Of a DNA stretch of 33,808 nucleotides, positions 277-26,614 are shown piece by piece (within the stretch, counting starts at the first letter, position 1; each line of letters opens with the position of its first letter). The notes under the pieces were generated by a model, which was given only the letters and a program-made list of their open reading frames with translations, did no database searches and had not been told where the DNA came from. Location: contig JAJZZM010000003.1 in the NCBI GenBank assembly GCA_021797555.1, positions 1 to 33,808 on the forward strand, read 5' to 3'. The stretch is from Thermoplasmata archaeon (GTDB taxonomy: Archaea > Thermoplasmatota > Thermoplasmata > Thermoplasmatales > Thermoplasmataceae). The translations under genes and the position numbers were made by a program.

Positions 277-2808
277 ATGAAATTCAAATTTCTAAAATTT
301 GATTATTTTACCCTATTAATTTCAATAACAACCATATGGATTTTAATAAATCTATGGTATATAATATATAATGTTTATGATTTAAACAATGGCGGCATAG
401 TTGATACAACAACATCATTGCAGTCCTTATTGTCTGCATTTTATCATGAGCCTTTTCTAAACACGGTTCCTGGAGGTTCATATTTCAGTATTCATGCATC
501 CGAAATCTTATATGTACTTCTTCCTTTTTTTATTATATACCATAATTTTATAGATTTATATATAATACAGAGTATTTTAATTTATTCAGCATCAATACCA
601 TTATTTCTTCTTGCAAAAAAGAAATTAAACAATGAAAAGGCAGCATTTTTTATTGCAGCTGCATTTTTATTGAATCCGTACATTCAGGACAATCCATTTG
701 AAACATTAACATTATTTATGGGATTTATAATATATTCGTATTACTTCTTTGATTCAAAAAAATATGTTGCATTTTTTATAACATTTCTGCTTTCACTGTC
801 AACCATGGAATTTAACCCAATACTGGGTATCACATTCGGCATATATATATTATTATTATATACATATGACAGGATAAAATCAGATAAAGTTAGTGGTATA
901 GTACATAGAATAATATTATTTGATTTTAATAAAATAAAAAATAAAATTAAGTTAAATAAAAATTATTTTTTATTTGGATTCGTTATTATAATAATATCAT
1001 CACTATTTTTGGAAATTGATAGTTATGTTGTGCTTTATTTTTCTGGTGGGTCGCATATACTCACATCAAATCTTTACGAATCCAAACTGTCAATTAAGTC
1101 AATAATATCATCTATTGAATATGATTTGAATTCAAAGGTTAATACATTGCTATATTTAAATGGGCCTTTTTTATTTTTGTCATTTCTTGATCCTTTTGTA
1201 ATACTTGAATTGCCATGGTTTTTATCGTACAGCATATCGGTATTTTCTCCATACTGGTCTCTATCAGGGTACTATAATTCATATATAATACCATTTGCAG
1301 CAATTGCAGCAATTTTGGGTCTTGCAAAAATATCATATATGTTAAAAGATAACAAAAATAGAAATAAGCTCATAAATTTAATATCCTACCTTGTTCTTTT
1401 CGTTACTGTTATACTGCTCATATCAAATGTTTTAATACCCATGTATTTAACTCCCGTAACCTCTGTAAATTCCAATAACTACGGCATAAACCAGTTAACA
1501 TCATTAATACCTGGCAATGCAAGCGTTTATACAGGTGTAAATGAGCTTCCAATAGTAAGTTCACAGACACCCAATACATGGTTTTTTGGTAATGAAAAGA
1601 CGTATATATTATATAATGTAACACATCCACCGCCCCTGAATTCATATGGTTTTCTGGCAGCATACGGTTCACATGCATTATATGAAAAAAATTATAACGG
1701 TACTTCAAAATTTAATAATTTAGATTTATACTGCAATATCGGTACATATAATGCAGGTTCATATATAAAAGATAAAAATATATTATCAACTGGCATACCA
1801 AAGGGGAATTATAAATTAACATTAAGTATAAATTATCGTGGAGACATAGTAAAAACATTTAATGAAAATTCAAATACATCATTATTTTTAAACGATTCAT
1901 ATGCATTAGTATATCCTTTTACACTGAAACAGAATTTTAATTTAAGTGAAATAGCCACAAACTCATCAATGTATTATGGTTATTATATTCTGCAGTCTAT
2001 GATAACAGATTCATTTAATGGATACTATATAAATCCATCATCCATAGTATCATGCAGTTCATATGGGCATAACGAATATAATTTTAAATATGAACATTTT
2101 AAGTATGATACCGAATTAATTGCAGGCCAGACATATTATTTATGGCTATGGTCATCAGGATACCCGGGTGGAATGTTTTATCCTGTAGAAAATACGGGTC
2201 ATAATTCATCATATATAGTAAGTATTTACAATGGTGCCGGTACCGATTCATATGGCTATAAAATAAGAGACCTGTACAGCATTAGGAATTCGGATTTATC
2301 GCCTAAAATATCATTAATAGGAATATTGCCAGAACCAACGAATAAGCCAACATATTTATCTGTATCAATTAATAATAATACTAAAATTTTAGACATAACA
2401 AAAAATACAGTAATAAACTATAATCTGGATTTTGATAATTTAAATTCATTTAACATTTCATCAAAAACCATTAATGGGACAATGGATATAACATATAATT
2501 TAATATCAAGAAGTTATGCATCAAATAATAACATATTAATGGAATACCCATATATAACACTTGCAATTATAATACTATCATTTACGATAATTTATCCAGT
2601 AGTAAACATTGCGGTAAAATCCCATTTAATTTTAAATTTAAACCTTATAAAAATAAATTTAATACTATTTTTAATACTTTTTTATATATCTTTTATATTG
2701 TTTTATTTTAATTATATAAATATAAATTTAATATTTTTTAAGATGTATGGAATAATAATAACAATTTTATTATTTCTGTATGTACTTGAATTTAGAAAAT
2801 CCAGATAA
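277..2808 (+). CDS. DUF2079 family polytopic membrane protein (843 aa)
   Basis: Large integral membrane protein with the look of the DUF2079 family. The N-terminal half (about residues 8-390) is a series of hydrophobic helices that includes the family-like stretch FSIHASEILY and a following NPF-type loop. A long, polar, Asn/Ser/Tyr-rich segment (about 395-755) probably lies outside the cell. Three hydrophobic helices close the protein (about 758-840). DUF2079 proteins are uncharacterised but resemble GT-C glycosyltransferases that use lipid-linked sugar donors at the outer face. This is family inference. The gene starts a locus of glycosyltransferases and a flippase and ends 16 bases from the opposing stop of the GT4 gene, which supports a role in surface glycan assembly. 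A second, shorter paralogue lies at 7234-8979. ATG start with a TATA box about 24 bases upstream. The family call is fairly firm; the enzymatic role is not. Confidence 0.75.
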   Translation: MKFKFLKFDYFTLLISITTIWILINLWYIIYNVYDLNNGGIVDTTTSLQSLLSAFYHEPFLNTVPGGSYFSIHASEILYVLLPFFIIYHNFIDLYIIQSILIYSASIPLFLLAKKKLNNEKAAFFIAAAFLLNPYIQDNPFETLTLFMGFIIYSYYFFDSKKYVAFFITFLLSLSTMEFNPILGITFGIYILLLYTYDRIKSDKVSGIVHRIILFDFNKIKNKIKLNKNYFLFGFVIIIISSLFLEIDSYVVLYFSGGSHILTSNLYESKLSIKSIISSIEYDLNSKVNTLLYLNGPFLFLSFLDPFVILELPWFLSYSISVFSPYWSLSGYYNSYIIPFAAIAAILGLAKISYMLKDNKNRNKLINLISYLVLFVTVILLISNVLIPMYLTPVTSVNSNNYGINQLTSLIPGNASVYTGVNELPIVSSQTPNTWFFGNEKTYILYNVTHPPPLNSYGFLAAYGSHALYEKNYNGTSKFNNLDLYCNIGTYNAGSYIKDKNILSTGIPKGNYKLTLSINYRGDIVKTFNENSNTSLFLNDSYALVYPFTLKQNFNLSEIATNSSMYYGYYILQSMITDSFNGYYINPSSIVSCSSYGHNEYNFKYEHFKYDTELIAGQTYYLWLWSSGYPGGMFYPVENTGHNSSYIVSIYNGAGTDSYGYKIRDLYSIRNSDLSPKISLIGILPEPTNKPTYLSVSINNNTKILDITKNTVINYNLDFDNLNSFNISSKTINGTMDITYNLISRSYASNNNILMEYPYITLAIIILSFTIIYPVVNIAVKSHLILNLNLIKINLILFLILFYISFILFYFNYININLIFFKMYGIIITILLFLYVLEFRKSR

Positions 2809-2824
2809 ATTTTAAGCTATATTT

Positions 2825-4084
2825 TTATATAGCGTTCTCCATATTATAAGTGTCATTAATTACCACTTTAGTTTTATTGTATTTTTCTATAATGTTTTTA
2901 TATTCCATTGCAACATTATACCAGTTATGTTCCTTTATAAATTCATTTACATTGTCGTCAAATAAACTATATGCATTATCCATATTTAGTATTTTTATTG
3001 CTTCCACTGCCATTGCTTTGTAATCAAACTCCTTTACCAATTTTACTGATCTAAAATTATTATATATTTTCAATCCTGCTATATTGTATGCTACTACCGG
3101 TGTATTTAGTGATAGGGACTGTGAAACTGTTATAGAAAATGAATCATAATGTGAGGGATAGATCATTAATTTTGATGTTGATATTTCTTTATATAAATCA
3201 TCATCACTTAAAAATCCCTTATAAACAATATAATCTTCCAGGTTTAGCCTTTTGACTATTTTAAAGAATTTCTTCCTTTCACTTTCATATACAAACTTTC
3301 CTACAATTATTAACCTGGTATTATAATATTTTATTATATGCTTCATTATTTTAGGCAGTTCAAATATTCCCTTATTGTAAATCAGCCTTGCAAAGAATAT
3401 TATTTTGTTTTCTTTTTCTTTTTTATTTTTATTATATTCAAATATGCTGATGTTTGAATTATTAATCCCATTGCTTATATTTAGCACATTTATATTTTTG
3501 AAGTTTATTTTTATATTTTCATCATAATGTTTGTTGATCATGCATAAAAATTGAAGATTTCTATATTTTTTTAAACTGTATATTATTATAGTATAATTAA
3601 AATAATGGTATATTCTATATAAAAATATATGAAAGGCTTTGCTTAGTTTAATTGTAGAATATATATAATTAAAAATATGCAGGTTAAAATTACTAAGCCC
3701 CTGCAATGATACACCAAAATTTAAATTCATTTTTTTGCTTAATATTAATGTAAAATTTTTAGAAAACACAGGATTTTCTATAAATTCAAGGGCAAATATA
3801 AAATCTATTTTTTCCCTAGAATACATATTTATTATTTCATCATAATTATAGTTGTTATTTAATATATCGTAAAAATATTTCGTTATTCTTATTCCGTATT
3901 TTTTAAGTTCTTCGGATTTTTCAATTATACTATTCTTATCTTTTCTGAATTCTTTATACAATTTTGGGTCAGGTAAATAGACAATATCATAATAATTATT
4001 TAATATGTTTATAACGTTTATTGCATGGACCTGGGCACCACCAGTATTTATCAATAAATCCGGACCAGTTATGCCTATATACAT
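2825..4084 (-). CDS. GT4-type (group 1) glycosyltransferase with altered EX7E motif
   Basis: A 419-residue GT-B-fold enzyme. The N-terminus carries the Gly-Gly donor/acceptor loop (TGGAQVHAINV, from about residue 13). The C-terminal half has the group 1 nucleotide-sugar domain, with the usual order of a phosphate-binding stretch (IIFFARLIYNKGI) and then the acceptor/donor region near DSFSITVSQSLSLNTPVV. In most GT4 enzymes this last region is E-x7-E. Here the two positions read Asp and Gln (DSFSITVSQ), so either the chemistry is altered or activity is reduced. It should transfer a sugar from a nucleotide donor to a growing lipid-linked glycan in the cytoplasm. ATG start. It is convergent with the DUF2079 gene and lies opposite the aminotransferase relic. 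Family certain; substrate unknown. Confidence 0.85.
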   Translation of the reverse strand: MYIGITGPDLLINTGGAQVHAINVINILNNYYDIVYLPDPKLYKEFRKDKNSIIEKSEELKKYGIRITKYFYDILNNNYNYDEIINMYSREKIDFIFALEFIENPVFSKNFTLILSKKMNLNFGVSLQGLSNFNLHIFNYIYSTIKLSKAFHIFLYRIYHYFNYTIIIYSLKKYRNLQFLCMINKHYDENIKINFKNINVLNISNGINNSNISIFEYNKNKKEKENKIIFFARLIYNKGIFELPKIMKHIIKYYNTRLIIVGKFVYESERKKFFKIVKRLNLEDYIVYKGFLSDDDLYKEISTSKLMIYPSHYDSFSITVSQSLSLNTPVVAYNIAGLKIYNNFRSVKLVKEFDYKAMAVEAIKILNMDNAYSLFDDNVNEFIKEHNWYNVAMEYKNIIEKYNKTKVVINDTYNMENAI

Positions 4085-4151
4085 AAGTTACAAATCAACT
4101 ACCATATTAATATTATTTGAGAAAAATAATTACTTATAACTAATATTATAA

Positions 4152-4448
4152 TGGTCCCTTGCTGCCATAAAAGTAATACGTACAGATTATAAATCCACTA
4201 TAGGGCGTGATGAATTATATAATGTTTTGTGGGCAGAAAATATATTTGCAAGGAAATATTTTTATCCACCATGCCATCTGATGGAGCCATACAAAACCAA
4301 TTTTAAAGTGAAAAATTCCCTTAAAGAAACAGAAAAATTTTCAAACAGTGTGCTTGCATTGCCAACATACCAGCATATAACATCAGATGATATAAAAACT
4401 ATATGCAATATAATAAAAATAGCGAAAGAGAATTATATTAAAATTTAA
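4152..4448 (+). pseudogene. DegT/DnrJ/EryC1/StrS aminotransferase, C-terminal relic
   Basis: The frame is open from just after an in-frame TAA at 4149 to the stop at 4448. It encodes only the last roughly 98 residues of a PLP-dependent sugar aminotransferase. Recognisable landmarks are a GRDELYNVL-type helix, then NIFARKYFYPPCH with the following PY, then a SVLALPTYQHIT stretch and a final helix. These match the end of DegT/StrS family enzymes. The large PLP domain, with its catalytic lysine, is missing, and no plausible start precedes the fragment, since the TTG at 4227 lies inside the domain. It is therefore the tail of a deleted gene. Intact members make amino-deoxy sugars for surface glycans, so the glycan locus has probably lost an amino-sugar step. 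Family call confident; loss of function near certain. Confidence 0.8.
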
Positions 4449-4593
4449 ATGCCCCCGAATTTTTCATCTACAATTATTTGATACCTTTAAGGTTACAGGA
4501 AATATATAAGGTTAATAATTATGTTTTTTTATGTTTACCACAGTAATATTATTACTTATATTATATATTATAATATAAATATTAAAATAATAC

Positions 4594-5496
4594 TTACTGT
4601 ATCTCAAAAATCTTTCTTTGAATATATACACTGAAAAATCCAGGATATATCAAGATTAATATGTAAATTCCTATAAACATAATATTGTGCCTTATACCAT
4701 CATGAAAATGAAGAATATAATTAATTAAATTTTCTACTTTTATCGAATTATCATATGGGCATTTTACTATTTCATAATTTGTTATTGACCATTTTATATA
4801 TGATATAGATTTTTTAGATTTAAAAAGATTCCTGAATATATATAAACTATCCATTAATATATCTATTTTTTTTATTTTATTATAGTTAAACTCCTCTTTG
4901 TTTATACTTATCGTATTTGATGCACTGCTATGATATCTGTAGTATGTCAATTCCATTTTATTTACAATTATTTTTTTGCCTGATTCAAGTGCACATAAAT
5001 ACATGAATGTATCCACTGCTCTCTTAATAATCCTTAGATAATCCATATTTATTACATCTTTTTTAATTGATATTGATGACATATTGTAATCAGGTGCTTT
5101 GGCTTTGCGTTTTATTATATCACCATTTTTATTTATCATTATAAATTTGTTATGGTAATATACAAGAGCTTTATTGTTGAATAAATTATATACATATTCT
5201 AATTTATTGTTAAAAAATAAATCATCATCATCTAAAAATGATATTACATCACCCTTAGCTATTTTTAATGCTTCATATAATTTTAATGATAATGATTTAT
5301 TATCACTAAATATACTTATCATATCATTTTTATTTATAAAATTATCTATTTTATCATCATTATAATTTTTAACAACAATTATTTCATATTTATCTTTAGG
5401 TAATGTCTGGTTTAATGCACTTTTAATGGCATCCAGTAAAAATTCCTTTCTGTTATATGATGCAATGATTACTGAAATTTTTGGTCCATCTTTCAT
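4594..5496 (-). CDS. GT2 family glycosyltransferase
   Basis: A 300-residue GT-A-fold enzyme. The start motif KISVIIASYNR (from about residue 6) and the acidic metal-binding stretch FLDDDD (about 88-92) are those of family 2 transferases. The usual second motif (VDDGS-like) is replaced by a VVKNYNDD sequence, so the nucleotide-binding loop is unusual. One hydrophobic helix near the C-terminus (about 272-294) could hold it at the membrane. It probably adds one sugar to a lipid-linked or surface glycan. ATG start at 5496. It is transcribed alone, on the same strand as the neighbouring GT4 genes but separated from them by relic-bearing spacers. Sugar specificity cannot be read. Confidence 0.85.
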   Translation of the reverse strand: MKDGPKISVIIASYNRKEFLLDAIKSALNQTLPKDKYEIIVVKNYNDDKIDNFINKNDMISIFSDNKSLSLKLYEALKIAKGDVISFLDDDDLFFNNKLEYVYNLFNNKALVYYHNKFIMINKNGDIIKRKAKAPDYNMSSISIKKDVINMDYLRIIKRAVDTFMYLCALESGKKIIVNKMELTYYRYHSSASNTISINKEEFNYNKIKKIDILMDSLYIFRNLFKSKKSISYIKWSITNYEIVKCPYDNSIKVENLINYILHFHDGIRHNIMFIGIYILILIYPGFFSVYIQRKIFEIQ

Positions 5497-6092
5497 TTAA
5501 ACAAATTATTATATTGCTAATAAAAATTAAGTACTATAGTTTGCTATTATAATTAAATATAAATAATATTAATCATAATTAACCATTTATATCAATGCCA
5601 TTCAAAAATGATAGGAGCTTATTACAATGTGATTATAATGCCTGAAGTACTGTAAAGTTCTAATCCCATCAATTGAGTTATGGCGGATTCACTTGCCATT
5701 GCCCAGAAGATCAAAATTTTCCTTTGAGGACAGGTTTCTTACCTTTTCCAGTATTAAATAGATTCTAACAACTTCCATTCCATGCTTTATAGTCTGATTA
5801 TAAAATTATCGTTTTTCATATGTTATTAACAAGTATACGTTAAATAAAATCTTTACATTACATTATTTCATTTTAGATATAAATTAATAAAAATAAAATT
5901 TAAACATTGTTTAATAGCATATCGGATTTGCCGTAAGTTGCCAACAGTGCCTAATCCCAAGCATGAAGATATTTCACGTTACCAATAAAAGAACATTTTT
6001 ATACCAGTTTCGCTTATGTAAATAACTTATTCCTGCATGGCAGTAAATTATGCAATATTAATTTTCTGTTAATATATTTATATAATGTTACT
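5497..6092. other. Gene-free spacer with coding debris
   Basis: About 600 bases without an intact gene. The composition is patchy: stretches near 5600-5800 and 5930-6050 are richer in G+C than normal spacers here and give protein-like frames on the minus strand that are broken by stops. The better one is listed separately at 5602-5802. The second (about 5930-6030, minus) reads in pieces that I cannot assign. Confidence 0.5.
5602..5802 (-). pseudogene. Unidentified broken gene fragment, possibly a transposase
   Basis: On the minus strand one frame stays protein-like for about 67 codons, with a single TGA at 5689-5691. The part before the stop includes an ATG at 5778 and the residues MEVVRIYLILEKVRNLSSK. 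After the stop it continues in the same frame (IRHNSIDGIRTLQYF). The amphipathic pattern and the surrounding debris suggest an insertion-sequence relic, but I do not recognise a family with confidence. Confidence 0.35.
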
Positions 6093-7061
6093 TTATTTAA
6101 CTATTTCATTATATATTTTTATATATTTTTCTATCCAGTTATCGTACTGGCTTATCTGTTCCACCAGCCCCGGCTTTTTAGGTTTATATAGATTATCTAT
6201 AAATTCATCGAAATCATTAAAATAATATGCTTTATCGCCTAAAATTTCATGGTGCACTGGAATATCATTCACCAGTACCTGTGTATTTAATTTCATTGCC
6301 TCCATTGCCGGAAATCCCTCCCCCTCATTATATGTATAATAAACATATTTATCTGCATATTTTAAATATGAATATTTTGTATATTCATCAACAAAACCTA
6401 AATTAATTATATTTTCTGAATAATTTACATATTCCGGGTCATCTATATTGCCTATCTGATATAATTCAACATCCGGCAGTTGCTTAACAAATTTAAATAG
6501 TTCTTCTATTCTTTTCCTACCCTTCCTATTTTTTAAATAAATACTTCCTACTGTAACCAGATGCATTTTATTATTATCTGGATATGGATTTTTATAATTA
6601 TTATTTAGATCAGGTATCCCTGTCGGTATTGCATAAACATTGCTAGTATCAATATACGATTCTAAATCTTTTTTAACCACGTTTGATGGCACAATTATGG
6701 CCTTTAATTTTTTTATTTTTTCTAATGCATTTTTATAATAAATAATGGTATATCCAGTTTTTTTATAAGCATCCAATGTTAAGGGAAAAACATCATGCAC
6801 TGTTGTAATATCTGCATACTTATTTAAATTAAAAAACGATGTCTGGTGAACTATATCATATTTTTTTAAATTCATAAATTTATTATACAATTTTTTTGTT
6901 GTATCCCCAAATAATCTTTTATTTCCTATTTTTATTTCAATGGATTTTATAGGGATAAATGAAGGGAATAAACTATCTGACAAACCATCATATAGCCACT
7001 GGCTGTATTCTTTTATACCGTTATATCCCTTTTTTTCCTCATATAAAATCGCTGCTTTCAT
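6093..7061 (-). CDS. GT4-type (group 1) glycosyltransferase
   Basis: A 322-residue GT-B enzyme. The N-terminal half has a short acceptor domain with the HQTSFF and TTVHDVFPL landmarks typical of mannosyl/rhamnosyl-type GT4 proteins. The C-terminal donor domain has LVTVGSIYLKNRKG and an intact E-x7-E motif (EGEGFPAME) followed by Q/V-rich beta strands. It should use a nucleotide-diphosphate sugar in the cytoplasm to extend a glycan. ATG start at 7061, with the next gene on this strand (DUF2079) 172 bases upstream, so a separate promoter is likely. Unlike the GT4 at 2825-4084, its catalytic motif is complete. Substrate unknown. Confidence 0.85.
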   Translation of the reverse strand: MKAAILYEEKKGYNGIKEYSQWLYDGLSDSLFPSFIPIKSIEIKIGNKRLFGDTTKKLYNKFMNLKKYDIVHQTSFFNLNKYADITTVHDVFPLTLDAYKKTGYTIIYYKNALEKIKKLKAIIVPSNVVKKDLESYIDTSNVYAIPTGIPDLNNNYKNPYPDNNKMHLVTVGSIYLKNRKGRKRIEELFKFVKQLPDVELYQIGNIDDPEYVNYSENIINLGFVDEYTKYSYLKYADKYVYYTYNEGEGFPAMEAMKLNTQVLVNDIPVHHEILGDKAYYFNDFDEFIDNLYKPKKPGLVEQISQYDNWIEKYIKIYNEIVK

Positions 7062-7233
7062 CTACCTCTTATAATTTACCTACTTTTAAATGTTTGTTTG
7101 ATAAATTAGCATATAATTATACTTATTTTCAGGAATTACTGATAAAATTATTGAAGTTTGAATAATATTTAAACGGGAACCAATTTTTTGAAAAATAATA
7201 TCTTACAATTTTCAAAATAATTATAAAATTTAT

Positions 7234-8979
7234 TTAATATTTAGTCTGCACTATATTTACGTTATTTATTTTATAGTTATTGCTGATAATTGCTGTAAAT
7301 CCATGCATATATAAATCTGTATATATGTTAACAGTATAATTGCCTTTATTGTTTACACTGTAATTATATGAATTATTTCCGGATAATATTTCTAAATTGC
7401 CATTATAATTACGGTTAAATGAAATATTTACATTATAGGATCCAGGAGCAATAAAATTAGTTATATTTGTATTATACAAATTGAAATTAATTGAATATTT
7501 TAAAGGAATAAATTTAACAGGTATATTATTATAGTTTTCCTTTAATAGGATCATTCCATCCATTTCGGCATATATCCCATAATTACCTGACCTATAATAA
7601 TGATTAAATGCATTAAACATTGTTATATTGCTGATCTGGGGTACATTAAATGCGGATGAATATATATCAGTTATGATATATTCCGGATTATTTGCATGTG
7701 CAGGCAATTGCCAGTTATAGTTCTGGGTTAGCTGCGGCATATTGTTCTGGATTAAAACGGATGAATGCAGTGGAATTAAATTTATTAATTCATTTAAATA
7801 TTTATCATTAATATTATAATTTATACAGTTGTTTTCATTATAATATATATTATTTCCTGATATAATTTCCCTTATATTATTATTGGAATCCTGGTTTACA
7901 ATAAATGATCCTGCCGGTGTAAAGAATACCGCAAGGACAATATTTAAAATTAATATTGCTGTTAGAACTTTTTTTAAATCTAATCTTTTAAAATTTAATT
8001 TTTTAATATATTTTATATTTTTAATGTTTTTGATTCCAAACAATGCCGATAAAAATATTCCAGAAGCATATAAGGAAGGATATTGATATAATAATGTATC
8101 TCCATAAAATGAATTTCCTGAAATAAAAAATAATAAATAAAACGGTATTACCAGGAAAAACCATTCAAGGCCAAAAAATGATAAGAATAGTAATGGAAAT
8201 GTTATCCTGAACATGAATAAAATCTTTGTTTGCAATGGGTCTTTATATATTGATAGTACCGGTGTTATTGCTGTAGCGGTATATCTTGTTGTTACATTTA
8301 TTCCATAATATAAATTTGCAATAACAAAAAGTATTAAACTTATTGAAAATATTGCAGTAAAATATTCCTTTTTTATCTTATCCAGTTTTTTATAATGCAT
8401 TAAAAGATATGCAAGTGCAAATAGACCAATAATTACAGGTGCCAATAAATCCGTAATAGCTGATAAAAATATAAATAATACCGAGGTTTTATATCTATTT
8501 TTAAATAAAAAATATATTGATATTAAAAAGAATGTTGGAAATAAGGCCATAAAATGGAAATCAAAGAAATATGCACCATATAATGGGTAATAAAATAGGT
8601 ATGATAATGAGAATAGCAATGAATTGGTTTTTGATAAAAAATTATTTGATATAAAATATAATGGTATTATTCCAAAAGATAGCCACACACTCTGGAATAT
8701 TAATAATATATACTCATGTGGATATAAATAATAAAACGGTGCGATAATTAAATATATCAATTTATTCATTAATATAGGCCTTGGATTTATAGATGTTGAA
8801 ATCAAGCCTCCATGGAATACATTATATAACGCTTCGGAGGATACCCCCAAGTCAAATACAGTTGCGTGAAATGAAAAATATTTCATTACTGATAGATACG
8901 AATATAATACTGAATTAACAAGAAATGCTGAGATAATTATTATTAATCGAATTTTGTTGTATTTCATTTGTAATGTCAA
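7234..8979 (-). CDS. DUF2079 family polytopic membrane protein (581 aa)
   Basis: The N-terminal two thirds (to about residue 360) are made of about ten hydrophobic helices. The first extracytoplasmic loop carries FDLGVSSEALYN, matching the FDLG...Q/E pattern near the N-terminus of DUF2079 and related GT-C-like proteins, where an acidic residue is thought to be catalytic. A polar, Asn-rich C-terminal domain (about 365-581) should lie outside the cell. It is a diverged paralogue of the 843-residue protein at 277-2808, with a much shorter external domain. Sitting between a GT4 and a GT2 gene, it most likely transfers sugar from a lipid carrier outside the membrane; this is inference. ATG start at 8979. 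Confidence 0.75.
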   Translation of the reverse strand: MTLQMKYNKIRLIIIISAFLVNSVLYSYLSVMKYFSFHATVFDLGVSSEALYNVFHGGLISTSINPRPILMNKLIYLIIAPFYYLYPHEYILLIFQSVWLSFGIIPLYFISNNFLSKTNSLLFSLSYLFYYPLYGAYFFDFHFMALFPTFFLISIYFLFKNRYKTSVLFIFLSAITDLLAPVIIGLFALAYLLMHYKKLDKIKKEYFTAIFSISLILFVIANLYYGINVTTRYTATAITPVLSIYKDPLQTKILFMFRITFPLLFLSFFGLEWFFLVIPFYLLFFISGNSFYGDTLLYQYPSLYASGIFLSALFGIKNIKNIKYIKKLNFKRLDLKKVLTAILILNIVLAVFFTPAGSFIVNQDSNNNIREIISGNNIYYNENNCINYNINDKYLNELINLIPLHSSVLIQNNMPQLTQNYNWQLPAHANNPEYIITDIYSSAFNVPQISNITMFNAFNHYYRSGNYGIYAEMDGMILLKENYNNIPVKFIPLKYSINFNLYNTNITNFIAPGSYNVNISFNRNYNGNLEILSGNNSYNYSVNNKGNYTVNIYTDLYMHGFTAIISNNYKINNVNIVQTKY

Positions 8980-9108
8980 TGTAAATTTTATATTTAATTG
9001 TTTATTAATGGATTTTATTGTAAATATAAAGAATTTATTTAATTTAACTTTTATTATAAGGATGTTAATTTCATATTTTTCCTGAGAAATAAAGAATCAA
9101 AGCAAAGT

Positions 9109-9118
9109 TATATATAAT
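9109..9118 (+). promoter_or_regulatory. TATA box for the GT2 gene at 9147
   Basis: TTATATATAA lies 30-38 bases before the ATG. With the usual 25-base spacing, transcription would begin around 9138-9142, giving a leader of only a few bases. Position-based inference. Confidence 0.5.
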
Positions 9119-9146
9119 CTTTTTTATTAATGGTTAATAAAGGCAT

Positions 9147-9971
9147 ATGAAAGAATTATATGAAGAACTAGTACGCAGTGAAAATTACGAAACAAATAAT
9201 TACCCGGATGTTACATTTATTATACCTGCATACAACGAAGAAAATAGGATATCCTATGTTATGGATGATTTATGCGGTTATATATATGATAACAACCTTA
9301 AATGGAATATTATAGTTTCAGTTGATGGTAATGACAATACAAAGGATATGGTAAGCAGTTATTCAAAAAAATATGATTTTATAAGCATGGATACATCAAA
9401 ATCAAGGTCAGGCAAAGGAAATGCCATAAAAAGGGCATTAATAAATAATAGTTTAATTATAAATGATACTGTAATATTTATGGATGCAGATAACAGCATA
9501 AAATTTAATGATATATTAAACAGAATAAAAAATATAAATAATAATGATGTTATAATATTAAATAGATATTATAAGGAAAATAAAATTCCATTTTTAAGGA
9601 AATTTCTCGGCAGGTCCTTTAATGCAATAATAAAAGGCATTTTAAGATTAAAAATAGACGATACGCAATCTGGCTATAAAATATTCAAAAAAAACGTTTT
9701 AATGAAGGAAATAAATTCAGTAGGATCAGGCAGTGCGTTTTTTGACATATCGTTATTATACCATATAAAAAAGGATGATTACAGCATAGAAGAAATAGAT
9801 ACAGATTATGAATATAATAATAATACATCATTCCATATTTTTAAATTAACGGTGAACATGTTTTTATCAATATTTGCATTTAAATTCAGGCATACAAAAT
9901 TATATGATAAAATGCCAGAAAAAATAAAAATAAAATTGCTGGAAATATATTATAAACATATAAACGAATAA
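9147..9971 (+). CDS. GT2 glycosyltransferase, dolichyl-phosphate sugar synthase type
   Basis: A 274-residue GT-A enzyme of the ALG5/DPM1 group. Motifs in order are FIIPAYNEENRI (about 24-35), SVDGNDNTKD (about 58-67), GKGNAIKRAL (about 89-98), the metal-binding DAD in FMDADN (about 111-116), and a QSGYKIF stretch near residue 175 that is diagnostic of dolichyl-phosphate glucosyl/mannosyl synthases. No strong C-terminal membrane helices are present. Its likely reaction is NDP-sugar plus polyprenyl phosphate to polyprenyl-phosphate sugar, which would supply the GT-C-like DUF2079 proteins of the same locus. Convergent with the flippase gene (24 bases between stops). Good confidence in subfamily; sugar unknown. 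Confidence 0.85.
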   Translation: MKELYEELVRSENYETNNYPDVTFIIPAYNEENRISYVMDDLCGYIYDNNLKWNIIVSVDGNDNTKDMVSSYSKKYDFISMDTSKSRSGKGNAIKRALINNSLIINDTVIFMDADNSIKFNDILNRIKNINNNDVIILNRYYKENKIPFLRKFLGRSFNAIIKGILRLKIDDTQSGYKIFKKNVLMKEINSVGSGSAFFDISLLYHIKKDDYSIEEIDTDYEYNNNTSFHIFKLTVNMFLSIFAFKFRHTKLYDKMPEKIKIKLLEIYYKHINE

Positions 9972-9995
9972 TATTAATAAATTAAATTTCAACTA

Positions 9996-11567
9996 TTATT
10001 TAAAGAATCTGAATAACCTATCATTTTTAATAGTCTTATCATGGAATGCTAAATTTTTCATCATGTATTTTAAGAATCCAAATTTGTTCGGTACAATAGA
10101 TAATGCGTATTCCATTTCTTCCATGCTTATTAATTTAAAAATTTTTATTTCTGATATATAAATCAATGTTCCTATTATAATCAATATAAATATATTTATT
10201 AAATCATATGGCAGGTTTTTTTGCAATATAAACACTGAAAAGAACATTATTAATGATGCAGCCCATATTTTTATTATTCTATTTTTATCATAATTTACAA
10301 CATCAAATTTTCTTGCATAATGGTATAATATTATGAAATTAACTATGTTCATTGATGAATATGATATTGCTGCACCTATTATATTAAATCTCGGTATTAG
10401 TATTATTGATAATGTTAGATTTGATAACAATGATAAGCCTGATGATATTATGAATATGTTTGTTTTCCTTATGCTTGATATCCCCGGAGATAAAATAATA
10501 GAACCTATAAATACTGCAGTTACAAACATTATTATCATTAATGGCATATATGAAATTTCATATGCATTTCCTGCAAATACATACAACAATGGTTCAGATA
10601 ATGCTGCTATGCCTAAAGCAGCAGGAATATAAATTAATGATGAAATATTTAATAACATTCTTATGCTTGATTTAAAGGCTATTTTATTATCTAATGAAAA
10701 GAATGATGATAATTTAGGTACTAGCAAATTTGATATTGGCATTATTAATATTGTTGCTGCACTTGCTATTATTAATGCAAAATTGTATATACCCAAATAT
10801 GATAAATTAATAAAATATGATACAACTATTCTATCCAAATATGTTGCACTCGTACCCATTATTGAAGAAAAAAACAATGGTATTGAATAATATATTATAT
10901 TTTTATATTGTTCTTTCTCATAATTTGTTTCTTCCAAGTTCAATCTTTTATATATTCTATAAACATATATAACAAATATAAATGCACTTACTGTATCTAT
11001 TATAGCTATTCCCGATATTAAATATATAGCTTTTCCATATAAAAATAATAAAAATAATGGGAATAAATATAAAAATGTATAAAAAAATACATAAATTAAT
11101 GAATATTTTTTATACTGGTTTAAACCCAATAGTATTGATGCAAATATATTTATCATAACTGAATCTGCTATTGCTATCCCTATTATTTTTATTGATAGTT
11201 CATAATCTATGCTGTGGAAAAATAATATTGCTATATAAGGCGATGTATAAAATATAAATAAAAATGCCAATATAGCCAATAATAAACCCAATATTGCAGT
11301 TCTTTTAATTAATTTCAGCAATGTATTATTATTTTTTCTTGCCAAATGGTATGAAAAATAATGCTGTATACCGAATGATAGGCCGAATACAAAAACAGTT
11401 GTTAATATATTCATCAATGCATATAATAATGATATAGACCCCACGGTGTTAACAGGCAATAAATGCGCTATAAAAAAATAGAAAAATGTTGATGATAAAA
11501 ACATAGCTGCAACTGATGAATACTGAAACGCAACCCCCGAACCAAATGACTCTGATATATCACCCAA
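9996..11567 (-). CDS. Polysaccharide flippase (Wzx/RfbX, MOP superfamily)
   Basis: A 523-residue membrane protein with about 14 hydrophobic helices and short charged loops, the profile of PF01943-type oligosaccharide flippases. The N-terminus has the usual FGSGVAFQYSSVAAMF helix preceded by a short polar stretch. The C-terminus ends in a basic tail (KNDRLFRFFK). It should move a lipid-linked glycan across the membrane, completing the set of GT2, GT4 and DUF2079 enzymes around it. The chosen start is TTG at 11567; no upstream ATG keeps the frame, while a downstream ATG at about residue 22 would remove the first helix. Convergent with the GT2 gene. Confidence 0.85.
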   Translation of the reverse strand: MGDISESFGSGVAFQYSSVAAMFLSSTFFYFFIAHLLPVNTVGSISLLYALMNILTTVFVFGLSFGIQHYFSYHLARKNNNTLLKLIKRTAILGLLLAILAFLFIFYTSPYIAILFFHSIDYELSIKIIGIAIADSVMINIFASILLGLNQYKKYSLIYVFFYTFLYLFPLFLLFLYGKAIYLISGIAIIDTVSAFIFVIYVYRIYKRLNLEETNYEKEQYKNIIYYSIPLFFSSIMGTSATYLDRIVVSYFINLSYLGIYNFALIIASAATILIMPISNLLVPKLSSFFSLDNKIAFKSSIRMLLNISSLIYIPAALGIAALSEPLLYVFAGNAYEISYMPLMIIMFVTAVFIGSIILSPGISSIRKTNIFIISSGLSLLSNLTLSIILIPRFNIIGAAISYSSMNIVNFIILYHYARKFDVVNYDKNRIIKIWAASLIMFFSVFILQKNLPYDLINIFILIIIGTLIYISEIKIFKLISMEEMEYALSIVPNKFGFLKYMMKNLAFHDKTIKNDRLFRFFK

Positions 11568-11676
11568 TAAAAGGGTATATGGAATAAAGTTTAAAAAGTT
11601 ATCTAATAAAATAAATAAAATCGTTAATCAAGAAAATATTTTTTATAGTGCCCACAAATATATAATTAATAATACT

Positions 11677-11687
11677 TTTATAATAAA
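11677..11687 (+). promoter_or_regulatory. TATA box for the EamA transporter gene
   Basis: TTTATAATAAA is centred about 21 bases before the ATG at 11703, consistent with a leaderless transcript. Position-based inference. Confidence 0.35.
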
Positions 11688-11702
11688 AATAAATAATCCC
11701 AA

Positions 11703-12590
11703 ATGAAAAAAAATTTTTTACTTTTAATTATTCTGGCAGCATTGTGGGGAATAAACTTCCTTATGCTTAAAATATGCTTAATTTACGAGCCAGGATTATA
11801 TATTATGTTTTTTAGAGTACTAATTGCAGTATTATTTATATTCATAGTACTGCGTAAAAAAATAAAATTCCCAAAATCAATACGTGCAAATATATTTTTA
11901 TTTATTTTCGGGCTTTTTAATATAATATTATTTTTCGGATTCTGGGCTATTGGAGAGGGGACTGAAACTGCATCGTTATCATCAATAATAATATATACAT
12001 ATCCAATAATAGTAATAGCCCTTGCGAGGATTGTTTTGGATGACCGGTTAAATAGGTACAAGATAATATCATTGATTTTGGGTTTTTCAGGCATGGTAAT
12101 AATATTTTCAAGCCAGTTATTGATAAAATTTAATATCGGTTTAATATATCTTTTAATTGCTGCCATATCATTTGCACTGGGAGCAATATTTATGAAAAAA
12201 TATTTAATAAATATAAATACAATAACAATAAATTTTGTACAGCTGCTCTATTCATTGCCGGCAATGTTTTTATGGGCATTTTTTACTGAAAAACTAAATT
12301 TTGGTGGTTTTAATATACTTTTTATATCCCTAATATTATATATGGGAATATTGGGAACTGCTGCTGCATATTTAATCTATATAGATTTATACCAGCACTC
12401 AAAAGTTTCATCCATTGCATCATATTTTTTCCTTGTACCGGCATTCTCTGTTGTATTCAGCATAATTATTTTGCATGAGGTCAATTCTTATTATACTTAT
12501 ATCGGTTTTATAATAATTGGCATAGGCATATATTTAACTTCCCTTGGAACAAAAAATAAGAGAAATATTATCAATAAGCTGCCGGAATAA
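11703..12590 (+). CDS. EamA/DMT superfamily transporter
   Basis: A 295-residue protein with ten hydrophobic helices in two EamA repeats (about 5-140 and 150-285). The first begins with the family-like stretch LLIILAALWGINFLMLK, and the second ends with LGTAAAYLIY and a Leu/Ile-rich final pair of helices. These drug/metabolite transporters usually export amino acids, sugars or other small metabolites; the substrate is not readable. ATG start with a TATA box close upstream. Convergent with the DUF302 gene 26 bases away. It separates the glycan locus from the methyltransferase and ABC region, with no clear functional tie to either. Confidence 0.85.
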   Translation: MKKNFLLLIILAALWGINFLMLKICLIYEPGLYIMFFRVLIAVLFIFIVLRKKIKFPKSIRANIFLFIFGLFNIILFFGFWAIGEGTETASLSSIIIYTYPIIVIALARIVLDDRLNRYKIISLILGFSGMVIIFSSQLLIKFNIGLIYLLIAAISFALGAIFMKKYLININTITINFVQLLYSLPAMFLWAFFTEKLNFGGFNILFISLILYMGILGTAAAYLIYIDLYQHSKVSSIASYFFLVPAFSVVFSIIILHEVNSYYTYIGFIIIGIGIYLTSLGTKNKRNIINKLPE

Positions 12591-12616
12591 ATATATTAAT
12601 ATTAAAATTAATAAAA

Positions 12617-12997
12617 TTATGATAAATTATTTACAATAGATTCAATAATTGTTTTTAATTTCATCATATTATTTGCTGATTTATTAATATTATAATCCTT
12701 TATTAATATTTCCGGATTTCTATACACTATATACACATCATTTTTCTTGTATACAAGAAATTTTGATGGCAGTTCAATTCCGATATCAGGATTTTCATTC
12801 ATTAACGGAGTTCCGGCTGCAGGAGACCCAAAAAGTATTAATTTTTCAGGGTTCATTTCCATATTAACAGTTTCAGCATTCTTTTCATGGTCTATTGTTG
12901 CAAAAACATTGATATTTTTTGATTTAAGTGAATCTAATATTTTATTGACAGTTTCATCAAAACCATATTTGCTTTTAATTTTTATCAATTCATCCAT
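12617..12997 (-). CDS. DUF302 domain protein
   Basis: A 126-residue soluble protein matching the DUF302 pattern. An N-terminal helix (FDETVNKILDSLKSKNI) is followed by FATIDHEKNA, then the conserved strand-turn KLILFGSPAAGTPLM, and then ELPSKFLVYKKNDVYIVYRNP. DUF302 proteins are small alpha/beta proteins of unknown biochemical role, sometimes linked to redox or metal stress. No signal peptide is visible. ATG start at 12997. Monocistronic and convergent with the EamA gene. Confidence 0.8.
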   Translation of the reverse strand: MDELIKIKSKYGFDETVNKILDSLKSKNINVFATIDHEKNAETVNMEMNPEKLILFGSPAAGTPLMNENPDIGIELPSKFLVYKKNDVYIVYRNPEILIKDYNINKSANNMMKLKTIIESIVNNLS

Positions 12998-13173
12998 AAT
13001 TATGCATAACTTTACAATATAAAAATTTATTTATTAACATAATGCCCAATTAAGTTATATGTTAATTCAAATATATAATACTATAATATAGCAATAAGCA
13101 AAATATCGGCAATGATAGATTTAAATATAAATTTCTATAACGTTTCAAATTTATAAATACGGCAAAGCATTAA

Positions 13174-19154: not shown

Positions 19155-20012
19155 TTATATATTATTTGTATTTTCTTTTGCATTATCCTTTGCTCCAAAC
19201 ATTTTTTGTGAAGTGTTTTTGACATTTTTTAATATGTTGTTTTCAAACATTGATGTTATGTCTTCCACGGATTTTCCATTTGTTACTGACATTATTATAA
19301 ATAATCCTACATGTTATATACAGGGCCTATAGTTGCATGCATTACTGGAAATAATTCAATTCCGGGAATAAATAATGGGCATTACAAAAGGAATTTAAAT
19401 ACAAAGTACGGTGGATTAAAGGAATTAAAGGTGCCAAGGAATAGAGATAATAGATTCCACAGTGCAGTAATTGAAGCAAATAAAACAATAGGTTTGGAAG
19501 GATTAATAACATCATTATGCTCCAATGGTGCATCAACAAGGAAGATACCTGATATATTAAGCAATATATTTAAAAATAGGCATTCACCATCACCAATATC
19601 AAGAATAACAGATATGACGCTGGAAGAGGCAAATAAATTTTTAAACAGGAAATTGGATAATAGGCACATGGCTGTAATACTGGATGGCTTATTCTTCTAT
19701 TTGAGGAGAGGTACCGCAGACAGGGATCCAGTAATATTTGCTCTAGGCATAAAAGAATCAGGAGAGTATGAAATACTGGGATTTTATCTTGCCATTAAGG
19801 AATTCCATAATAATTACAAGGATGTACTGGAAGACTTATGTAGAGGGTGGTTAAAGGTAATTTCATCATTACCTGATGTAGATTATTCCATGAAGATATC
19901 CTATTTAAAATCAATAAAGTTCAATTCCAAGCATATATTCAGGAAGATGGACGGGTATATTAAATGCAATGGTGAAATTAAGGAAATGTTCAACAAGAGG
20001 TACACTTTATAA
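19155..20012 (+). pseudogene. IS256-family transposase, deleted and apparently rearranged
   Basis: The plus frame 19311-20012 matches the N-terminal and central parts of an IS256 (mutator) transposase: GHYKRNLNTKYG, then ELKVPRNRDNRFHSAV, NGASTRKIPDIL, SRITDMTLEEA, and VILDGLFFYLRRGTADRDP with the first catalytic Asp. After EDLCRGWLKV the frame jumps to the family's C-terminal region (SSLPDVDYSMKISYLK). The intervening segment with the second Asp and the Glu is gone, so it cannot be active. Directly upstream, on the opposite strand (19155-19292), is a 45-codon open frame (MSVTNGKSVEDITSMFENN...) that looks like the missing first residues of the same transposase, suggesting a local inversion. 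No clear terminal inverted repeats were found. Confidence 0.75.
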
Positions 20013-20123
20013 ATACACAGAATACTGTTCACGACAATTCTCCAAATTCCAAGTTATTTAAGGTATAACTGTAATCTATTATAATAAAAAAATTAATTAG
20101 CAACTATATTATAGTATTATTTA

Positions 20124-21089
20124 ATGAAAAGTGTTTTTCTTGAATCCAGGGGGATTATAAAAATTAAGGATATTAATGATATAAATAATATACCGGAAGG
20201 TTTTATTAAAATAAAGGTTAAATCTGTAGGCATATGTGGTTCTGACATTCATTATTATTTTAATGGCAGCATAGGAAATTTTGTTCTGGAAAAACCTATG
20301 ATACTTGGGCATGAAACTGCAGGCATAGCCGAAAGCAATGCCAATAATATCAGAAAAGGCGATATAGTTGCTATAGAACCGGGTTTACCTTGTGGGAAAT
20401 GCAAATACTGCAAAACTGGAAGATATAACCTATGCCCGGATGTTAAGTTTTTTGCAACACCGCCTGTAGATGGTTCTCTCAGGGAATATATTGTATATCC
20501 TGAAGAATTTGTTTATAATGCCAGTGGCTTAACAACCGATGAGGCAAGCCTTGCAGAGCCAATGTCAGTAGGTATATACGCCACACGGAAGGCGGGCATA
20601 GGGCCTGAAAATAATGTACTGATTGTTGGGTCCGGATCTGTTGGCATATTAACAGCATTCTCTGCAGAGGCGCATGGATCAAATGTAACATTATGTGATA
20701 TAAATATAGATAAAATAAAATATGCCAGGAAATGTGGATTTGCAGCATTTTTAAATGATAAAATCCATGATAAATACGATAATGTTTTTGAATGCAGTGG
20801 AATGGCAGCAGAATTTGCATTGGACAGAACCGAAAAAGGTGGAGACCTATTTTTAATAGGCATGGGCAACAAATGCGGATTAAATCCATTATATATAACA
20901 TCAAATGAAATCACAGTTCATGGAATATTCAGGTATAATAATACATTTAATGATGCAATTAAAATTATAAAAAAGTATAGAAACAGGATTAAGCCATTTC
21001 TTGAAAAGAAGATATGCATTGATGATTTAGACTCATACATGAAGAATAAGGAGTATGAAAAATACCTGAAAACCATAGTGGAATTATGA
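20124..21089 (+). CDS. Zinc-dependent polyol (sorbitol/xylitol-type) dehydrogenase
   Basis: A 321-residue medium-chain dehydrogenase, a little shorter than the usual 340-350. Catalytic-zinc ligands Cys38, His63 and Glu64 (GICGSD, LGHETAG) and Glu145 (AEPMSVG) are present, as are the four structural-zinc cysteines at 90, 93, 96 and 104. The Rossmann motif is GSGSVG (169-174), and Asp192 after the second strand favours NAD over NADP. The DIHYYFNGSIGNF and FFATPPVDGSL stretches are those of sorbitol/xylitol dehydrogenases. It should oxidise a polyol to a ketose. Its stop overlaps the xylulokinase ATG as ATGA, so xylitol or D-arabinitol to D-xylulose is the favoured reaction. Sorbitol is possible. 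ATG start. Confidence 0.85.
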   Translation: MKSVFLESRGIIKIKDINDINNIPEGFIKIKVKSVGICGSDIHYYFNGSIGNFVLEKPMILGHETAGIAESNANNIRKGDIVAIEPGLPCGKCKYCKTGRYNLCPDVKFFATPPVDGSLREYIVYPEEFVYNASGLTTDEASLAEPMSVGIYATRKAGIGPENNVLIVGSGSVGILTAFSAEAHGSNVTLCDINIDKIKYARKCGFAAFLNDKIHDKYDNVFECSGMAAEFALDRTEKGGDLFLIGMGNKCGLNPLYITSNEITVHGIFRYNNTFNDAIKIIKKYRNRIKPFLEKKICIDDLDSYMKNKEYEKYLKTIVEL

Positions 21090-22432
21090 ATTACCTGGGT
21101 ATAGATTTAGGAACAACATCGATGAAGTTTCTGGTGATCAATGAAAATGGCATAATATATAAAAATTCCATAAACTATCCTGTAATTTATTACAATAATG
21201 GTTATGCCGAGCAGAATCCCTTATTGTGGTTAAAGGCTTTCAAAAAACTGTATAAAAATATGGATGTGAAAATAGATAGCATTGGCATAACAGGTCAGAT
21301 GCATAGCCTTGTACTAACGAACAATGGGAAACCTCTTATTAATTCAATATTATGGCTGGATAACAGATCGTATAAATTTTCTAAATACCTTACTAGAAAA
21401 TTCGGCACTGAAAATCTCATAGAAGAAACAGGAAATTACCCGTTATCAAATTTTACCCTGCTCCGGCTATTATGGATAAGTAAGTACAATAAAAATATAT
21501 ATAAAAATGCAAATAAGGCCTTCGTGGCAAAGGACTGGCTTAAATTCATGCTTACCGGGGTGCATGGAACAGACGTCACTGACGGATCAGGAACATATCT
21601 GTTCAATGTTAGGTCCAGGAAATGGTCGGATAAATTATTTAATGGATTAAATATGGATAAAAAACTCTTTGGGGATGCCTTTGAATCAGGGGATATACAT
21701 GGATACTATAATGGCATACCTGTAATTGCCGGCGCAGGTGATCAGGAAGCAGCAGCATATGGCAATAATCTAACACTAAATGATGTGGGTATATCCCTTG
21801 GGACATCAGGTGTGGTCTTTGCAAAGATCAATAATTATAAAATCCCGGAAAATAAATCAATACATCTATTCTGCGATGCCAAAAGAAATAGATGGCACTG
21901 GATGGGTGTTACACAATCTGCGGCATCTTCACTGGACTGGTTTATAAAGGCATTCAATATTAAATATTCACAGCTAAAAAATTTAAATGGGTTTTCCAGG
22001 GTCCTTTTTATGCCATACCTGAATGGTGAGAGGGCGCCCATTATGGATACAGATATCCGTGGTTTATTTTATAATCTATCCCCGGATACCGGCATTAATG
22101 ATTTTATTATCTCCATCATGCAGGGTGTTGCTTTCAGCCTGAGACACGTATATGATTCCATGAATATACATAGGAAAAATATAATATTAACCGGTGGTGG
22201 CACCAGAATCGATAGCTGGAACCAGATAATTTCTAACGTCTTTAATATGCCGGTCAAGGTTAAAGAAGATAGTGGGTCCGCCCTTGGAGCTGCCATGTTA
22301 TCCTCTCACGGTGATATCGATATCGATGCCAGCTATAAACTATATTACCCTGAAAATCATGATATTTATGATGATTTGTACATAAAATATAGAAATATGG
22401 TAAAGCGTATAGCAAAGCCAGATAAATTATAA
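21086..22432 (+). CDS. xylB: Xylulokinase (FGGY family)
   Basis: A 448-residue FGGY carbohydrate kinase with two actin-like domains. The phosphate-binding loop is LGIDLGTTSMK (4-14); GITGQMHSLV (67-76) is the xylulokinase-type substrate motif; the catalytic base is Asp219 in GAGDQEAAAYG; the second nucleotide loop is SLGTSG; and the C-terminal signature is LTGGGTRIDSWNQI. It phosphorylates D-xylulose to xylulose 5-phosphate. It is coupled to the polyol dehydrogenase by a 4-base overlap, making a two-step polyol catabolic operon that would feed the pentose phosphate route. The base composition of both genes looks slightly richer in G+C than their neighbours, which would fit acquisition by transfer. 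Ribulokinase or glycerol kinase are less likely because of the GQMH motif. Confidence 0.85.
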   Translation: MNYLGIDLGTTSMKFLVINENGIIYKNSINYPVIYYNNGYAEQNPLLWLKAFKKLYKNMDVKIDSIGITGQMHSLVLTNNGKPLINSILWLDNRSYKFSKYLTRKFGTENLIEETGNYPLSNFTLLRLLWISKYNKNIYKNANKAFVAKDWLKFMLTGVHGTDVTDGSGTYLFNVRSRKWSDKLFNGLNMDKKLFGDAFESGDIHGYYNGIPVIAGAGDQEAAAYGNNLTLNDVGISLGTSGVVFAKINNYKIPENKSIHLFCDAKRNRWHWMGVTQSAASSLDWFIKAFNIKYSQLKNLNGFSRVLFMPYLNGERAPIMDTDIRGLFYNLSPDTGINDFIISIMQGVAFSLRHVYDSMNIHRKNIILTGGGTRIDSWNQIISNVFNMPVKVKEDSGSALGAAMLSSHGDIDIDASYKLYYPENHDIYDDLYIKYRNMVKRIAKPDKL

Positions 22433-22539: not shown

Positions 22540-22733
22540 ATTTTATATCATTTAGCATCTGTCTGTTAGCTACCTTATGCCAAAGCATAGAGGCTTCATG
22601 ATTCATTGACCATTGCTTACCATTACATACGGGCTTTTAGTCCTTCAAGGGCAGAGGCAATAATCTCCACAGGCTTATATTCCCTTAAGCACTCCGCAGG
22701 TATTTTATTTATAAGAGTTGAAGCCTTAATTTA
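22540..22733 (-). pseudogene. TnpB-like (IS605-type) C-terminal remnant
   Basis: On the minus strand the frame 22733-22623 encodes ASTLINKIPAECLREYKPVE and continues to a TAA. A shifted frame then goes on with NGKQWSMNHEASMLWH. The order of a PVE motif followed by a KQ...EA motif is what closes many IS605-type TnpB proteins. The zinc finger and catalytic core are missing. The remnant lies about 70 bases from a dispersed repeat that is probably an element end. The family call rests on short motifs. Confidence 0.45.
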
Positions 22734-22798
22734 AGTACTTCTGCTATTCCTCTTATTATTTAATGTTATTAAAATATATTATATAAATATTTTATTAT

Positions 22799-22860
22799 AG
22801 GAATTCATCCACATCGTAAGCTCAGTGGCCTTTTTTCTGGTATGTTAATTTGTAAAAATT
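22799..22860. repeat. Dispersed repeat copy 2 (matches 87-156)
   Basis: This copy begins GAATTCATCCACATCGTAAG and ends TTGTAAAAAT. It matches the stretch at 87-156 in the same orientation with few changes. Beyond the matched block the sequences diverge, so the repeat has sharp limits. A nearby TnpB-like remnant suggests origin from an IS200/IS605-type element. Confidence 0.6.
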
Positions 22861-23255
22861 TAATATTTTTGCTCTATCATTTTTGATGTTTATATTATTA
22901 TTAATGACTATAATTACTCCAATTTTTAAATTGAATTTACCATAGCACGATAATATTTTTGGAGGTCTATGAAATTACCAGAGCACTTCAAGGTTAATGC
23001 CAGAATTCTTTTCAGGTTAACATTATCAATAATTTAATATATAATTACGGAAAATTTGCTGAGAGATTGCTTATTTTTATCATACATATACAATACAACC
23101 ATCATTAAAAATATATAATATACTTTAAATTTGAATTAAATGCAATTTATATCATATAATAATATTTATTAATCATGCTGGATAATGCCATTATATCAAT
23201 GAAAATTAGTACATAATATTTTAATTATTAAAATAAAAATTTTAACTTTATGTTA

Positions 23256-25471: not shown

Positions 25472-26614
25472 TTATATTGTTATGATTAGTTTATTATATC
25501 CGTACATTATATCATTATCTATTTTATCATCTGGTGCTGGTTCGATGGCATTGAATTTGTCTATATTACCTGAAAATTCCTCTAAAAAAATCCTTGATTC
25601 TAACCTTGCCAATGGTGCTCCTAAACAGAAATGTATTCCATTTCCAAATGCTATATGTCTTTTATTTTTTCTATCCGGATTAAATTCTTCTGGCTCTTCA
25701 TAAAGATCTTCATCTCTATTAGCAGACCCAAGGTATAACTGAATGAAATTATTTTTATTTACATCAACGCCATTTATATCTGTGCTGTTTTTTGCATATC
25801 TTCGTGTAGACTGGACAGGAGAAGCAAATCTTAGAGCTTCTTCTACTACAGAATTTATAAATTTATTATCGTTTTTCATTCTATCATATATTTCCGGCCT
25901 TTTTGATAATATAAGCAGGGTATTAGTGAGCAAATTTGTTGTTGTTTCGTTTCCGGCTACCAGCAATAGAATTGCAAAACTTGCTATTTCAGGCTTTGTC
26001 AATTTTTTCCCATCAACAGCAACCTCAGTTAATCTCTTAATTAAATTATTGCCATCATCATTATCTACCATTCTATAAAAATATCTGGACATTTCCATCT
26101 GTGTATTTATATCAGGGCCACGCCCAAGTGACGTTGCAAGCCTGTCAGACCATTTTTTAAATAAATCCTTATCTTTAATTGGTATTCCCAGTATATCAGC
26201 TATAACATTTATAGGCAAGGGTGATGATAATGAAGATACCAAATCAAAGGACCTTTTATTTTTTATATTATTGATTAATGATACTGTTATTTCCCTTATT
26301 TTATCTTCATAGGGCATTATTGCATTTGGAGAAAATGCATTGCTTACAAGATCCCTCAAATCTGTATGCGCTGGTGGATCTGATATCAATATGCTTGGCG
26401 ATACCATTTTATTAAGTTTCTGTGCAGTTTCTAAGCCAAGAAGGTCCCTGAACTGGGATGAATATGTTTTATAATCAGATAAAACATTTACTATATCCTT
26501 ATTTTTAAATAAATATATTACATTACCTTCCTTATAAATTGGATTTTTATTCCTCATTTTTTTATACCATTCAAATGGTTCCTCCCTATATGTAGGTATA
26601 TTCATATTATACAT
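25472..26614 (-). CDS. Cytochrome P450 (CYP119/CYP231-like, soluble)
   Basis: A 380-residue soluble P450 with no membrane anchor, the compact size of archaeal thermophilic P450s. The I-helix oxygen-activating motif is AGNETTTN (220-227), the ExxR motif is EALR (259-262), SANRDED (297-303) follows, and the heme-thiolate loop FGNGIHFCLGAPLARLE has Cys330. Several stretches parallel Sulfolobus CYP119 and the CYP231 proteins of Ferroplasma and Picrophilus. It inserts oxygen into an unknown substrate using electrons from a ferredoxin; no ferredoxin or reductase gene lies next to it. ATG at 26614, with a second ATG three codons in. Divergent from the MFS transporter gene across a 343-base spacer that holds only AT-rich promoter DNA. 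Confidence 0.9.
   Translation of the reverse strand: MYNMNIPTYREEPFEWYKKMRNKNPIYKEGNVIYLFKNKDIVNVLSDYKTYSSQFRDLLGLETAQKLNKMVSPSILISDPPAHTDLRDLVSNAFSPNAIMPYEDKIREITVSLINNIKNKRSFDLVSSLSSPLPINVIADILGIPIKDKDLFKKWSDRLATSLGRGPDINTQMEMSRYFYRMVDNDDGNNLIKRLTEVAVDGKKLTKPEIASFAILLLVAGNETTTNLLTNTLLILSKRPEIYDRMKNDNKFINSVVEEALRFASPVQSTRRYAKNSTDINGVDVNKNNFIQLYLGSANRDEDLYEEPEEFNPDRKNKRHIAFGNGIHFCLGAPLARLESRIFLEEFSGNIDKFNAIEPAPDDKIDNDIMYGYNKLIITI

Follow-up and report, generated by a model that had tools for sequence, protein, structure and literature searches.

The question raised by this locus is whether an acid-loving archaeon carries a bacterial-type, kinase-based route from a polyol to xylulose 5-phosphate and, if so, from where the genes came. 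The window, by which we mean the whole stretch of 33,808 nucleotides that was analysed, is a contig of a genome of 1.94 Mb that is 99.6% complete and whose relatives are Thermoplasmata. The gene pair and its surroundings comprise the following features:

20124..21089, + strand: zinc-dependent medium-chain polyol dehydrogenase, 321 amino acids (open reading frame with domain and motif matches)
21086..22432, + strand: FGGY kinase of the xylulokinase (XylB) kind, 448 amino acids (open reading frame with domain and motif matches)
20079..20098, + strand: A/T-rich stretch TATAATAAAAAAATTAATTA, likely promoter, about 26 to 45 bases upstream of the dehydrogenase start
19311..20012, + strand: truncated IS256-family transposase, a neighbour outside the module
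about 22565..22871, no strand assigned: dispersed repeat, a neighbour outside the module with many full or partial copies in its own genome
23256..24053, - strand: sugar kinase of the ROK family, the first intact gene downstream of the pair and a possible alternative partner, also found near the dehydrogenase in the sibling genome G065

An earlier note on this DNA had described a sorbitol/xylitol-type dehydrogenase linked to a xylulokinase by an ATGA overlap, and this arrangement was confirmed: both open reading frames lie at the positions listed, both are complete with their catalytic residues retained, and the dehydrogenase stop overlaps the kinase start as ATGA (junction sequence TTATGAAT). 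The pairing is not due to chance, since orthologous pairs are present in two related genomes, one of which has the identical ATGA overlap. Co-transcription is predicted from the overlap together with the conserved pairing, and the two genes would form a translationally coupled catabolic module. The stretch TATAATAAAAAAATTAATTA is nearly identical in G065, where the surrounding bases are divergent, and likely acts as the promoter. No linked transporter or regulator was found within the module; a gene of the major facilitator superfamily (MFS; sugar/aromatic-acid superfamily) lies 4.5 kb downstream and has no polyol-specific match.

The dehydrogenase contains the ADH_N and ADH_zinc_N domains, and its best solved relatives are a ketose reductase/sorbitol dehydrogenase, followed by L-arabinitol 4-dehydrogenase and xylitol dehydrogenase. 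The ranking of solved structures and the tree with bacterial relatives both place it closer to polyol-type enzymes than to threonine dehydrogenases or simple alcohol dehydrogenases. The catalytic-zinc ligands C38, H63 and E64 are kept, as are E145 and all four structural-zinc cysteines (90/93/96/104). The Rossmann motif is GSGSVG, and D192 at the end of the beta-2 strand suggests NAD as the cofactor, while R270-Y271 forms part of the FRY polyol motif. The window enzyme shares its zinc ligands, HYY and FRY motifs and NAD-type Rossmann fold with the sorbitol dehydrogenase/ketose reductase/xylitol dehydrogenase branch of the medium-chain family, but is about 20-25 residues shorter than this branch in the cofactor domain, a deletion common to the archaeal dehydrogenases and those of the bacterial group Sulfobacillia discussed below. 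Candidate substrates would be xylitol, D-arabinitol or a hexitol, for example sorbitol. Enzymes for pentitols and for hexitols overlap in their structural classes, so the structure matches do not separate them.

The kinase carries FGGY_N and FGGY_C domains, and its best solved relative is the E. coli xylulose kinase. The motifs D7, Q71-M72-H73, D219, LGTSG and GGGT are kept, with QMH and the catalytic Asp residues aligning with those of E. coli XylB. Its best curated model is TIGR01312 (XylB), at 338 bits, which is below the curated cut-off of 380; the lead is about 124 bits over the next xylulokinase model and 200 bits over any other sugar kinase model, the gluconokinase and glycerol kinase models scoring about 138 bits. 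The two archaeal orthologues also fall below the cut-off, and the Sulfobacillia orthologues score 415-444 bits. By these scores we file the window kinase as xylulokinase-like and not as a certified XylB member. A kinase acting on another ketopentose (D-ribulose, L-xylulose or L-ribulose), in a route starting from ribitol, D-arabinitol or L-arabinitol, would be compatible with the close specificities of FGGY kinases and with this low score. We consider such a substrate improbable, given that the other FGGY models are at least 200 bits lower, that the orthologous bacterial clade lies above the XylB cut-off and that one of its members is divergently arranged with xylose isomerase.

Gene context in the bacterial relatives bears on both substrates. 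In Sulfobacillus benefaciens (L002) and at a second locus (L001), the order is a LacI-type regulator, a PfkB-type kinase, a ribose/xylose-type ABC transporter, the dehydrogenase and the xylulokinase, and family matches indicate a similar cluster in G236. In G260, the dehydrogenase lies within a xylan cluster (xylose isomerase, GH3, GH10, GH30 and GH67) and the xylulokinase is divergent from xylose isomerase; the cluster of G214 resembles it by sequence. D-xylulose is thus the probable substrate of the kinase, as judged from the family model and from the fact that some Sulfobacillia genes adjoin each other and others adjoin xylose isomerase and xylanases. The same contexts appear to favour no single polyol for the dehydrogenase. 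The S. benefaciens pair (contig PXYT01000046.1) is direct kin of the archaeal one, with the two enzymes side by side at 44.5% and 41% identity. Salmonella plasmid p14-120 has the same order of dehydrogenase, xylulokinase and MFS transporter, and an E. coli plasmid has the order dalD-xylB-transporter, although the DalD protein of the D-arabinitol operon carries the annotation of another enzyme, D-arabinitol 4-dehydrogenase. These bacterial pairs adjoin a sugar transporter, whereas the archaeal pair does not.

In two further Sulfobacillia genomes, G206 and G261 (L101:9087-11142 and L104:7648-9568), the dehydrogenase adjoins a ScrK-like (fructokinase-like) ROK kinase; this hints at one dehydrogenase that may also serve hexitols when paired with another kinase. 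The archaeal enzyme could likewise convert mainly sorbitol to fructose, which a separate ROK hexokinase would phosphorylate, leaving the FGGY kinase as an accessory that adds the use of pentitols and is lost where pentitols are absent. This is possible but, in our judgement, rather unlikely. It would agree with the ketose reductase and sorbitol dehydrogenase structures that rank closest, and with the ROK gene just downstream in the window and one near the dehydrogenase of G065, a genome with a decayed xylulokinase. Yet the ROK protein of the window is weakly ScrK-like (45 bits) and encoded on the opposite strand, the overlapping structural classes make the structure matches indecisive, and it is a xylulokinase that is coupled to the dehydrogenase here and adjacent to it in S. 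benefaciens.

The origin of the pair was addressed with protein trees built by IQ-TREE, whose topologies were compared by the AU test; we use Sulfobacillia as a group name following the class of G118 (S. benefaciens). The three archaeal kinases form one clade (100/100) joined to Sulfobacillia (100/100), and in a wider tree with 20 more kinases this clade is nested in Sulfobacillia (95/94) as sister to S. benefaciens (92/92). Six archaeal dehydrogenases likewise group together (100/99) with Sulfobacillia (100/100), beside or within that class. In both trees, other bacteria, haloarchaea and other Thermoplasmatales lie outside the archaeal-Sulfobacillia grouping. Both proteins therefore contradict old vertical descent within Thermoplasmatales, the outcome that the earlier note had set against transfer; of its description of the route as bacterial/fungal-like, the bacterial half stands, with Sulfobacillia as the kin by the trees, and the fungal half does not. 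It is very improbable that these are old Thermoplasmatales genes with another function. Other Thermoplasmatales do encode FGGY kinases and medium-chain dehydrogenases, but with identities of about 25-33% these are paralogues, placed outside the clade by the trees, and the AU test rejects a topology that unites all Thermoplasmatales dehydrogenases (p = 1e-49). Kinase orthologues are also confined to 3 of the 117 genomes of the order, and the sole other strong match among 390 genomes drawn from the phylum lies outside the clade.

A placement of the archaea as merely sister to Sulfobacillia was not rejected (AU p = 0.19 and 0.32, smaller sets), so topology alone leaves the direction of transfer unproven. 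Movement from bacteria to archaea is the simplest reading, because the outgroups are nearly all bacterial and the pair is confined to one archaeal family. The pair was almost certainly acquired from acid-mine bacteria, Sulfobacillus and its kin, by a transfer that is old, since it is spread over two genera and predates their split. We regard this as a real domain-crossing transfer of a module of known bacterial kind, unusual in archaea and mechanistically ordinary.

Composition gave a mixed answer to the codon-usage and GC comparison that had been proposed: the kinase is atypical (GC3 0.37 against 0.27; z -3.1, with a background of 56 ORFs only), but the dehydrogenase is typical (codon z -0.5). 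The two genes have not drifted equally toward host composition. As proof of a recent transfer, GC and codon bias are weak, given the typical dehydrogenase and the small background.

The flanking elements had been cited as consistent with transfer, a use that they do not bear out. The IS256 relic is real and truncated, matching positions 20-179 of the 338 in the model, but the supposed TnpB relic was not recovered: the TnpB of sibling G065 has no match in the window, and the sequence at this place is a dispersed repeat. Since the orthologues in G065, G066 and G068 have no neighbouring IS256 open reading frame, the relics are uninformative on transfer, and we rejected both as its carriers, the IS piece and the repeat being local insertions not seen beside orthologues. 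The repeat itself (22565-22871) is about 250-300 bases long and is possibly the tail of a TnpB element; it matches about 25 places across the genome in full or in part, one copy being 97% identical.

The three kinase bearers in the order are the window's own genome, G066 (57% identity, same genus) and G041 (48%, same family). Dehydrogenase orthologues occur in 6 of the 117 genomes, namely these three plus G065 (87%), G068 (63%) and G042 (55%). The further strong kinase match in the phylum lies on a short contig (L170, 1489-3018) of G819, a different Thermoplasmatota metagenome-assembled genome. It is a strong xylulokinase by its TIGR01312 score of 610 bits and represents either a second acquisition or contamination.

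G065 (L067:6100-7110) has an intact dehydrogenase and still has the start of the kinase with its ATGA overlap, but the rest of the kinase is reduced to pieces matching residues 34-58 and 426-442. In G068 (L068:6270-6580), an intact dehydrogenase is followed by the first 21 kinase codons, at a locus otherwise syntenic with that of G066, where the kinase persists. No significant kinase trace was found in G042. The stubs in G065 and G068 record two separate decays of the kinase gene, and in several species the pair has since been lost or cut down to the dehydrogenase. The dehydrogenase dN/dS was 0.09 for the pair G000/G065 and 0.10 for G066/G068, each comparing one genome with the kinase and one without. 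The dehydrogenase is therefore of value independently of the kinase, being intact and strongly constrained where the kinase has decayed. The kinase is dispensable, and the operon is no conserved unit even within the genus. This decay in siblings, beside an intact and constrained dehydrogenase, is what is new here.

As a whole, the locus is best explained, with a probability of roughly 0.65, as a Sulfobacillia-derived module leading from a polyol through D-xylulose to xylulose 5-phosphate. The zinc dehydrogenase would use NAD, its predicted cofactor, to oxidise a polyol to D-xylulose, the likeliest candidates being the pentitols xylitol and D-arabinitol; the FGGY kinase would then phosphorylate D-xylulose with ATP, and the host ribulose-phosphate 3-epimerase, transketolase and transaldolase would carry xylulose 5-phosphate into central metabolism. 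The pair would have passed by horizontal transfer from Sulfobacillia to the ancestor of two genera of the archaeal family. The epimerase, a split transketolase and transaldolase are present in the genus genomes, the window's own included (in G062, transketolase gave a weak partial match only), in agreement with the published reconstruction of Ferroplasma acidiphilum (PMC5473848). The earlier prediction of xylitol or D-arabinitol use through xylulose 5-phosphate is thus upheld for a module feeding xylulose 5-phosphate, by the XylB best model, the gene context and the downstream enzymes, and not for the specific polyol. Against this explanation stand the XylB score below cut-off, the lack of an adjacent transporter, the kinase-less siblings, the ROK neighbours in G206 and G261, which point to hexitols, the sister topology that was not rejected, and F. 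acidiphilum itself, by report a peptide user unable to take sugars (PMC5473848). In the two siblings that retain only the dehydrogenase, this enzyme does its job without the kinase. A search for literature on polyol use by Ferroplasma, Acidiplasma and Sulfobacillus returned nothing.

The kinase route is, as had been supposed, unusual for archaea: xylulokinase was reported in no archaeon except Halorhabdus (Sutter et al. 2020, PMC8551123), which is the only published case. Halorhabdus xylA-xylB is likewise a bacterial-type, kinase-based entry of pentose to xylulose 5-phosphate in an archaeon (PMC8551123), but it starts from D-xylose by isomerase, whereas the window module has an alcohol dehydrogenase first and Sulfobacillia as its source. 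In the literature searched, no paper was found that describes a polyol dehydrogenase paired with a xylulokinase in Ferroplasma-type archaea. The locus provides a second, independent archaeal case, with an identifiable donor group from the same acid habitat. We tentatively propose, at somewhat less than even odds, that it was the first archaeal pentitol-to-xylulose-5-phosphate route, acquired from co-habiting Sulfobacillia, and that the dehydrogenase was later co-opted for a kinase-independent job such as redox balancing or the production or removal of a polyol solute; such co-option would account for the strong selection on the dehydrogenase in the kinase-decayed species. If the module works, some species would have a broader diet than is now known, given the reported inability of F. 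acidiphilum to take sugars. The kinase has decayed repeatedly next to a dehydrogenase that is conserved, which offers a natural test of why a transferred pathway is retained.

Two other parts of the window deserve mention. Positions 277-13000 form a long low-GC stretch (22-29%) with two DUF2079 membrane proteins, glycosyltransferases and a polysaccharide flippase, and look like a surface-glycan island. Positions 25472-26614 encode a cytochrome P450 that is closest to the CYP119 model, at 307 bits (cut-off 680).
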